From positions 186,001-250,000 of the forward strand of contig NZ_FWYE01000001.1 of assembly GCF_900176435.1 (NCBI RefSeq): a DNA stretch of 64,000 bases, written 5' to 3'. Made by a program: the position numbers and the translations under genes. A model generated the notes under the pieces. It had not been told where the DNA came from. It searched no databases and saw nothing but the letters and a program-made list of their open reading frames with translations. Below, piece by piece: positions 56,109-59,412 of this stretch. Position 1 is the first letter of the stretch, and each line of letters starts with the position of its first letter. The stretch is from Picrophilus oshimae DSM 9789 (GTDB lineage Archaea > Thermoplasmatota > Thermoplasmata > Thermoplasmatales > Thermoplasmataceae).

Positions 56109-56519
56109 TTAATTTGATTTTAGTAATTTAATCATCTTAACGCAGCTCTCAACAGCCTCCTTTGCCATATCTATCCTTGCCTCTGCCTGGAGCCTTGATT
56201 CTCCAGGACCTGAAATACCAAGGGCCACAGGCTTATTATACTCCAGACTTAGATCTGTTATCTTTCTTGAAACGTTGTCCATTATGATTTTATGATGATC
56301 CGTTTCACCTTTTATAACCGCGCCTATTGTTACAACGCCATCGATATCATTATCCATAAGCAGCTTTTTAATTGCTAGTGGCATATCAAATGAGCCCGGA
56401 ACCCTTAGTATTTTATGCACCTCAACACCAAGAAATTCAGCATACGATCTTGCCCTTTCAAGCATCATCATTGTTATATCATAATTGAATTCTGCAACAA
56501 CCATTCCTATTCTTATCAT
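56109..56519 (-). CDS. ribH: 6,7-dimethyl-8-ribityllumazine synthase
   Basis: 136 residues from ATG 56519, preceded by AGGTG about 9 nt upstream. Family features are IGMVVAEFNYDITMMML, KILRVPGSFDMPLAIKKL near residue 45, VTIGAVIKGETDHHKIIMD near 70 with the catalytic histidine, and PVALGISGPGESRLQAEAR. It condenses the ribityl-aminouracil with dihydroxybutanone phosphate to form lumazine. Third gene of the ribB-ribC-ribH operon. Confidence 0.95.
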   Translation of the reverse strand: MIRIGMVVAEFNYDITMMMLERARSYAEFLGVEVHKILRVPGSFDMPLAIKKLLMDNDIDGVVTIGAVIKGETDHHKIIMDNVSRKITDLSLEYNKPVALGISGPGESRLQAEARIDMAKEAVESCVKMIKLLKSN

Positions 56520-56528
56520 GATAAACAC

Positions 56529-57676
<1,148 letters not shown>

Positions 57677-57714
57677 GATGGATTATTGCATTATATTATT
57701 TAATATATTGGTAT

Positions 57715-57732
57715 CTACTCATTATTAAGTAA
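57715..57732. promoter_or_regulatory. Riboflavin-operon dyad before ribB
   Basis: Read on the minus strand, TTACT-N8-AGTAG, an 18-bp dyad with its near edge 39 nt from the ribB start. It overlaps the last codons of the adjoining amidohydrolase. The same dyad with the same spacing and offset stands before arfC (58784-58816), which argues for a shared regulator. Confidence 0.55.
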
Positions 57733-58707
57733 TATTGCCTCATGGTAGTGCCTCTTTGTCACTATCTGATATGGATTCAACAGCTCATTCCTAAAAAATA
57801 TGTATTTTTCAGCTATTTTTATTCCTTTTTTAAGCATGAATTCCCTTGGATTGTCTATAACCATCCTTAGTATATCCTCTGGTGATATGTATCCATTAAA
57901 TCTCTGGTATCTGTATAAGAAATCCATCTCCATGAAAATGTCAGGTATTGATGTAAAGACATTATCAGTGCCAAGCATAAGCTTTATTTTATGCCTTAAA
58001 AATTTTGAATAATCAGGCCTTTTTCCATAGAAGATGTTTGACCTTGGCGTTATTGATAAATATATGTTCCTGCCTGATATTTTATCCAGATCATCGTCGC
58101 TGGCCTCTATGCCATGTATAAGAAGATCCGGTTTTAAACCAAGAACCATGTTTATATCCTCCCGGGTGTTCTCGCTGAAGTGCAATGCCATGATCTTTTT
58201 ATTTTTGTGTGCCAGTTCAGATATGTTCAGTGCGGCATCGTAATCAATATCAGATACAGAACTTAAACCAATACCATCTGATATTTTAATAATGTCATTA
58301 GGATCGTCATTTTTATATGGCCTTCCAAATATCAATGGTACTATGTATTTCCTTCTTGTATTCTTTAATAGGTTTATGCCATTTATACCGTTCTCACGAA
58401 AATCAAAAAATGCCAGTGTTCCTGTATTTTCCATGTACCTTTCTGATTTTTCCATGTATTCCTTTACTTTATATTCATCTGCAGATTCCAGCGCCCTGTG
58501 CTTTAAGCCACCAGGGCCAACTATTTCAGGCAGCGTGCCTGCAGGCTCGTCCATTATAAATGAGTCACCGATATGTGTATGTGCATTTACAGGCATTGGT
58601 ATCAATGTTCCTTTAATACCGGTTTTTTCAGTTAATTCCATGGAGCTGGTATCAAAGTTCCCTTTTATCATGGAACCTTTAAAGTATATATTTCCTGAAA
58701 TGATCAT
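57715..58707 (-). CDS. Deaminase-type amidohydrolase within the riboflavin cluster
   Basis: 330 residues of the amidohydrolase superfamily, in the cytosine/adenosine-deaminase-like branch. All metal ligands are in place: MPVNAHTHIGDSF near residue 38 (HxH), IMALHFSENTRED near 172 (His), LLIHGIEASDDDL near 193 (His) and LMLGTDNVFTSIPD near 248 (Asp). It is only distantly similar in layout to the 48004 deaminase. It lies between ribB (39 nt downstream) and the divergent arfC. Archaeal riboflavin synthesis needs a pyrimidine deaminase whose archaeal gene is, to my knowledge, not established; this position and active site make it a candidate. Function otherwise unknown. Confidence 0.8.
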   Translation of the reverse strand: MIISGNIYFKGSMIKGNFDTSSMELTEKTGIKGTLIPMPVNAHTHIGDSFIMDEPAGTLPEIVGPGGLKHRALESADEYKVKEYMEKSERYMENTGTLAFFDFRENGINGINLLKNTRRKYIVPLIFGRPYKNDDPNDIIKISDGIGLSSVSDIDYDAALNISELAHKNKKIMALHFSENTREDINMVLGLKPDLLIHGIEASDDDLDKISGRNIYLSITPRSNIFYGKRPDYSKFLRHKIKLMLGTDNVFTSIPDIFMEMDFLYRYQRFNGYISPEDILRMVIDNPREFMLKKGIKIAEKYIFFRNELLNPYQIVTKRHYHEAILLNNE

Positions 58708-58783
58708 GGTACTGTATTTATTTAAAATATAAAATATAATAATTTATTTCAGATTTACAATATAATTATATAAATTTTAGTTA

Positions 58784-58816
58784 TTACTTATAGATAAGTA
58801 ACTTAATTATAAGTAA
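58784..58816. promoter_or_regulatory. Two overlapping riboflavin-gene dyads before arfC
   Basis: Copy 1, 58784-58801: TTACTTATAGATAAGTAA, perfect arms TTACTTAT/ATAAGTAA. Copy 2, 58799-58816: TAACT-N8-AGTAA. Both have the TTACT-N8-AGTAA form. The near edge is 39 nt from the arfC start, exactly as at ribB, just upstream of the arfC TATA-like GTTATATTA (about 58829-58837). A riboflavin regulator such as RbkR, known from Thermoplasma, is a natural candidate. Confidence 0.65.
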
Positions 58817-58854
58817 TATCCCAAAATTGTTATATTAGATTTAAATTAACCATT

Positions 58855-59412
58855 ATGAGGCCTTATGTAATAATCAACGTTGCCATGTCTCTAAACGGAA
58901 GGATCTCGTCTATAAATGGCTCCATTAAAATATCCGATGATTATGACTGGAACAGAACCATTGACCTCAGAAAAAGCGTGGATGCGGTTTTAATAGGTGC
59001 CGGAACGGTCATGGTCGATAATCCGGAATTAAAACACGCCAGATCAAGGATAATACTCGACGGAAATTATAAATTAAATGATAATTATAAGGTCTTTGAT
59101 GGTGGTGTACCTACATACATCATAACAGGTGTTGATGTTTCATTAAAAAATGTCATTGTAATAAAATTAAATGACCTTGACATGAAAAATATATTGAACG
59201 TTCTTTATGAACACGGCATAAAAAGCATACTTGTTGAGGGCGGGGCCAATGTTATATCACAGTTCTTTTTAAATAAACTCTATGATGAATTTTATATCTA
59301 TATTAATCCGGGTATGATCTTATCCGGAATGCCAGTTTTCAATGGTTTTGAGGCATCCGTTAATTATAATATATTAAAGCTTGGAGATGGCATATTATTA
59401 AAAATAAAATGA
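58855..59412 (+). CDS. arfC: 2,5-diamino-6-ribosylamino-pyrimidinone 5'-phosphate reductase
   Basis: 185 residues of the RibD C-terminal reductase family, a little shorter than usual (about 210-220) through shortened loops. The start is PYVIINVAMSLNGRISSING; DAVLIGAGTVMVDNPEL is near residue 42 and ILVEGGANVISQFF near 123, the NADPH-site elements. In archaea this reductase acts before deamination. It is divergent from the deaminase-type amidohydrolase and shares dyads with ribB. Confidence 0.92.
   Translation: MRPYVIINVAMSLNGRISSINGSIKISDDYDWNRTIDLRKSVDAVLIGAGTVMVDNPELKHARSRIILDGNYKLNDNYKVFDGGVPTYIITGVDVSLKNVIVIKLNDLDMKNILNVLYEHGIKSILVEGGANVISQFFLNKLYDEFYIYINPGMILSGMPVFNGFEASVNYNILKLGDGILLKIK

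Follow-up and report, generated by a model that had tools for sequence, protein, structure and literature searches.

RbkR (TA1064 in Thermoplasma acidophilum), its ligand logic and its archaeal regulons have been published (Rodionova et al. 2017, NAR 45:3785), and RbkR regulons often include rbkR itself. The T. acidophilum protein is said to have been crystallised with its operator (5TRD). The riboflavin operon PF0061-PF0064 of Pyrococcus furiosus is predicted to be under the control of the RbkR protein PF0988 (PMC10746257). Here, we describe 18-bp dyads at riboflavin genes in a 64-kb stretch of the genome of Picrophilus oshimae DSM 9789 (the window; GC content 35%). Judged by sequence comparison, these dyads are very likely operators of RbkR, a bifunctional CTP-dependent riboflavin kinase and winged-helix regulator, and this assessment covers the explanation as a whole, including likely activation.

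The first gene of a ribB-ribC-ribH operon is ribB (57005-57676, minus strand; PF00926, 2.7e-50; TIGR00506 above cut-off). Its end is overlapped by ribC for the archaeal riboflavin synthase (56529-57008, minus strand; TIGR01506, 1.8e-56, above cut-off), which is followed by ribH for lumazine synthase (56109-56528, minus strand; TIGR00114, 2.5e-42, above cut-off). The arfC gene (58855-59412, plus strand), annotated as 2,5-diamino-6-ribosylamino-pyrimidinone phosphate reductase, scores above the Pfam cut-off for PF01872 (6e-30) and below the cut-off of TIGR01508 (7.9e-34). These Pfam and NCBIfam matches confirm the gene identities given in a preliminary description of this DNA. An amidohydrolase gene (57715-58707, minus strand; PF01979) is located upstream of ribB and is divergent from arfC.

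At both ribB and arfC, the dyad WACT-N8-AGTA spans -56 to -39 relative to the start codon. The TTACT-N8-AGTAG dyad that the preliminary description placed before ribB is present as TTACTTAATAATGAGTAG (57732-57715, minus strand). This putative RbkR-type operator is separated by 38 nt from the ribB ATG (57676) and abuts the predicted BRE/TATA region of the ribB promoter (ataccaatatattaaata, 57697-57714, minus strand); at its far end, it runs into the final codons and the stop (57715-57717) of the amidohydrolase ORF. On the arfC side, the two overlapping copies described earlier were found as TTACTTATAGATAAGTAA at 58784-58801 and TAACTTAATTATAAGTAA at 58799-58816, with 3 bp in common and their centres 15 bp apart. 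The claim that dyad spacing agrees between ribB and arfC holds for one copy per gene and fails for the copy at -71. Only putative operator copy B (TAACTTAATTATAAGTAA, plus strand) lies at -56 to -39 from the arfC ATG at 58855, where it is followed by the arfC BRE/TATA region (tatcccaaaattgttata, 58817-58834, plus strand), which is nearly invariant in g1, g2, g11 and Acidiplasma.

Copy A, which starts at -71 from arfC, is a putative operator of the amidohydrolase promoter when read on the minus strand (TTACTTATCTATAAGTAA, 58784-58801) and is followed in that direction by a BRE/TATA-like region (taactaaaatttatataa, 58766-58783, minus strand). The plain reading of the overlapping copies is one operator per divergent promoter, back to back. 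That both copies serve arfC was considered and rejected, as only the proximal copy has the canonical distance and the other one, in the congener G069, stands at this distance from the amidohydrolase. Each RbkR site would thus consist of an 18-bp dyad with a consensus of about TWACTYA-N4-TRAGTAR directly upstream of the BRE, and in the divergent region the offset between the two operators would correspond to ~1.4 helical turns, where both copies may be occupied at once.

Measured from its first base, the dyad stands exactly 56 nt before the ATG of ribB, of arfC and of an MFS transporter gene on another contig, the latter counted from the ATG at the sixth codon and not from the first in-frame TTG. 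The amidohydrolase of the window is the one exception to this spacing, with its start codon 94 nt from its own dyad. This start codon is 38 nt further downstream than that of the G069 gene, and a leader of ~38 nt is predicted, given that the TATA-like stretch is at the usual place after the dyad. The amidohydrolase, with its own copy, and the MFS gene are two further predicted targets which were outside the preliminary description.

The dyad is conserved before both ribB and arfC in relatives. Among 30 ribB upstream regions from families f1, f4, and f5, the window genome included, 23 contained a dyad scoring at least 12/14 compared to 0.63 expected from shuffles, and 21 of those 23 were located 56-59 nt from the start codon. 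For arfC of g1, g2, and g11, seven of eight upstream regions contained the dyad, all at exactly 56 nt. The control upstream regions, those of arfC and amidohydrolase in other genera, contained it in 0/22 each. Conservation at these two genes, on which the earlier reading depended, is thereby borne out. In the alignment, the dyad ends immediately before a conserved TACY-AAA/BRE element and the TATA. Wherever the sequence of an aligned relative was usable, the arfC-proximal copy stood at -56. In G069, the spacing is 56 nt exactly at ribB, arfC, MFS, and amidohydrolase. Both G069 and Acidiplasma aeolicum also have two overlapping dyads, 15 bp apart as here and with the second copy at -71; this second copy stands exactly 56 nt upstream of the amidohydrolase ATG in G069 and about as far upstream in Acidiplasma. 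The Ferroplasma group has a single dyad in a shorter intergenic region.

Within the distant family f5, the ribB promoters L034, L037, and L038 carry a near-perfect palindrome such as TAACTCAAATTTGAGTAA at 58-59 nt before a GTG start. The ribB promoter of G058 (E-plasma; L024) contains the variant dyad TTACCAAATTATTGGTAT, in which the half-site is TACC/GGTA in place of TACT/AGTA, possibly reflecting a change of RbkR specificity in that lineage.

In the window, YTACT-N8-AGTAR has two exact matches against 0.23 expected, and at least two were reached in 2 of 100 shuffles. The pattern TWACT-N8-AGTAR gave four hits, which represent three sites since one is counted on both strands, and none of 100 shuffles reached four. 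A reversed-motif control was set aside because the ATGA within it skews it towards start codons. Specificity across the genome was assessed via a 40-nt profile of the dyad and the following BRE/TATA, for which 20 sites were used, all from other genera, and the window genome was left out. Among the best 150 of 1654 candidates scored in the genome itself, the profile retrieved the promoters of the MFS gene (E = 1.8e-5), ribB (1e-4), arfC (copy B, 2.5e-3) and the amidohydrolase (copy A in the amidohydrolase direction, 0.028), and no other promoter at E<=1 except the mirror image of the ribB site (0.8). The amidohydrolase match is independent, as the profile contains no amidohydrolase promoter. 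A separate pattern search led to the MFS site as well. A motif spread over intergenic DNA in general would speak against the preliminary description, and this is not what we see, the profile being specific to four promoters among these 150 candidates.

Seventeen further genomic places with WACT-N8-AGTW were read, most of which are within ORFs, and only the one at C2:284999 (MFS) has the same layout. A site at C2:355733, between radical-SAM-like and gamma-glutamyltransferase-like genes, is without the BRE spacing and absent from the profile list, and was rejected. Within the scope of these searches, the regulon of this genome would comprise four promoters, which serve the ribB-ribC-ribH operon, arfC, the divergent amidohydrolase, and the distant MFS transporter.

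The genome has a single CTP-dependent riboflavin kinase gene, which encodes a full wHTH-kinase fusion of 221 aa (PF01982, 1.4e-39; weak HTH-domain matches). This protein aligns with the T. acidophilum protein (3CTA/5TRD) over residues 4-215 (phmmer, 1.2e-60) and is identical to it at 102 of 217 positions (47%), and the recognition helix SQQ-x-x-S is invariant across 31 RbkR proteins. In G025, which we take to be T. acidophilum, CTACTAATTCACGAGTAA, presumably nearly the DNA present in 5TRD, is followed by TTACTCAAATATTTTTATA before an MFS gene, with dyad and promoter layout both as in the window. The 150-nt stretches preceding rbkR, the neighbouring PIN-like ORF, and the aIF2-beta-like ORF contained no dyad, and an rbkR site was likewise absent from the genome profile search among the best 150 of 1654 candidates scored. 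The specific promoters, the same element before the Thermoplasma MFS gene, and the full-length RbkR encoded in the genome lend support to the earlier suggestion that RbkR would be the natural binder.

The MFS protein (sugar-transporter family; G000:C2:283637-284974, minus strand, L191:638-1975), whose gene has the same operator dyad at the 56-nt spacing, is ~27-30% identical to the T. acidophilum MFS protein behind the same element and is likely a riboflavin transporter. The dyad and promoter element precede an MFS transporter gene in Thermoplasma (G025, G010, G049), G052, and G066. Of these genomes, G025, G010, G049, and G052, as well as G022, are without ribB, arfC, and the amidohydrolase, G066 being outside the ribB search. 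An element kept at a transporter in genomes without ribB is what a riboflavin regulator would be expected to show in organisms that scavenge the vitamin.

The dyad could instead be a general core-promoter element or a chance match in an AT-rich genome, and the bare YTACT-N8-AGTAR pattern is indeed not overrepresented genome-wide, with three palindromic sites in 1.53 Mb, two of which are in this window. We regard this explanation as negligible. A chance palindrome is ruled out by the window shuffles, the held-out profile, and the conservation controls, in which the position stays fixed from genus to genus and from family to family, in contrast to shuffles and control genes. A general promoter element is ruled out by the profile, which found no further promoter at E<=1 among the best 150 of 1654 candidates, unless many promoters of lower score carry the element too. 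It is also conceivable that the dyad is recognised by a winged-helix regulator other than RbkR, given that other HTH proteins exist in the genome. This is improbable, as the RbkR gene occurs in 37/37 near-complete genomes that were searched within the order, also where the transporter alone has the site, and as every identified target is a riboflavin gene or an MFS transporter. The complex of T. acidophilum RbkR with its operator, reported under 5TRD, argues in the same direction.

With RbkR as the binder, the mode of regulation can be considered. In the work of Rodionova et al. 2017, FMN reportedly weakened the binding of RbkR to DNA. An RbkR operator would be bound more strongly with CTP and less strongly with FMN. 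If FMN releases RbkR, an activator makes sensible feedback on biosynthesis, whereas a repressor does not, since synthesis would switch on when its product is plentiful. At low FMN, the RbkR dimer would bind and help TFB/TBP onto the promoter, and as FMN builds up, RbkR would leave and the genes would go quiet. Archaeal activators usually bind upstream of the BRE/TATA and repressors within or downstream of it (PMC5937170; PMC4706686). For TrmBL1, sites upstream of the BRE activated 2/3 templates, whereas downstream sites repressed 9/9 (PMC4706686). The fixed position of the dyad directly upstream of the BRE thus favours activation, and RbkR probably acts as an activator at these promoters. As a repressor, RbkR would keep TFB/TBP from the neighbouring BRE and come off only with a ligand, which gains some credit from the fact that the dyad abuts the BRE, so that a footprint only a few base pairs larger would overlap it. 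A site wholly upstream of the BRE/TATA with rigid spacing is, however, typical of activators (PMC5937170; PMC4706686), and repression therefore appears unlikely. The preliminary description had left the mode open, with both fitting equally; a repressor keeps a minor chance, but the position tips the balance towards an activator.

The amidohydrolase is present in 32/32 genomes with ribB and in 0/5 without it (37 near-complete genomes, the five spanning two genera). It adjoins arfC in g1, g2, g11, and Acidiplasma and also in the methanogen-lineage loci L265 and L270 (Methanosarcinales, Methanotrichaceae), where a relative of the amidohydrolase is divergently adjacent to arfC without the dyad. 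The best NCBIfam model is NF005552/PRK07213 ("chlorohydrolase"; 2.5e-59), to which MJ0699 presumably belongs, and with 201 bits against an equivalog cut-off of 294, the window protein resembles this family as a relative below the cut-off, for which reason we call it a candidate deaminase only. Its metal-site residues (HTH43-45, H176, H198, D248) are invariant, the AlphaFold model has a pLDDT of 92, and the top PDB matches are TM0936 and aminofutalosine, adenosine, and guanine deaminases. According to PMC8305020, MJ0699/HVO_2483 has been predicted by Rodionova et al. 2017 to fill a gap in the riboflavin pathway. On the strength of co-occurrence and the deaminase fold, the co-regulated and co-lost amidohydrolase is a candidate for the archaeal riboflavin deaminase step, where it would remove the 2-amino group of the reduced pyrimidine; its predicted substrate would be 2,5-diamino-6-ribitylamino-4(3H)-pyrimidinone phosphate. 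The broader proposal that RbkR in Thermoplasmatales is a position-locked activator, with its dimer at -56 to -39 touching TFB, and that the co-regulated amidohydrolase is the missing archaeal riboflavin deaminase is put forward tentatively, as a sizeable possibility.

GCH III (ArfA) was absent from 61/61 genomes of the order, and Thermoplasmataceae had neither GCH III nor creatininase-type ArfB matches, which raised the idea of the amidohydrolase as a substitute ArfB deformylase. This is less likely, short of firm exclusion, given that a GTP cyclohydrolase II-type protein (PF00925) is encoded at G000:C1:373716-374201 and in all 21 family-f1 genomes searched, and that the fold matches nucleobase deaminases. 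Moreover, families f3-f5 carry the amidohydrolase too, in f4 and f5 mostly or often together with a creatininase-family protein. In families f4 and f5 (e.g. G004, G009, Aciduliprofundum group), ribB and arfC are present and neither GCH III nor GCH II was found. The PF00925 protein is kept even in Thermoplasma genomes without ribB, arfC, and amidohydrolase, which suggests that it has another function in addition to riboflavin synthesis.

Together, these promoters would make up the whole of a small RbkR regulon, open to experiment, in an acidophile which makes its own riboflavin. To the extent that this could be checked, what is new is the strictness of the 56-nt spacing, the account given of the overlapping copies, and the full set of four promoters in the regulon. 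The tables of Rodionova et al. 2017 may list these very sites. The geometric rule, by which the dyad lies 56 nt before the start codon, speaks for activation, the opposite of the usual riboswitch-type shut-off, and regulatory, co-loss, and structural evidence is added for the amidohydrolase as a candidate enzyme of an archaeal riboflavin step.

The MJ0699/HVO_2483 family is likewise an amidohydrolase family linked to riboflavin synthesis, and the likeness of the window protein to it is by a family model, with a score under the model cut-off and with membership of MJ0699 presumed. P. furiosus RbkR PF0988 belongs to a different lineage, and the likeness is that of a riboflavin operon predicted to be under RbkR. 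TrmBL1 and TFB-RF1 of P. furiosus activate from sites upstream of the BRE/TATA, as proposed here, with proteins and ligands unrelated to RbkR. Unlike in many RbkR regulons, there is no site before rbkR in the searches made here, and in contrast to Thermoplasma, which is without ribB and arfC, the targets are the genes of de novo synthesis together with a transporter. One close likeness is to the RbkR regulon of T. acidophilum (TA1064), which has the same combination of wHTH and CTP-dependent riboflavin kinase, targets in riboflavin synthesis and transport, and the same TACT-N8-AGTA dyad and BRE/TATA layout before its MFS gene.
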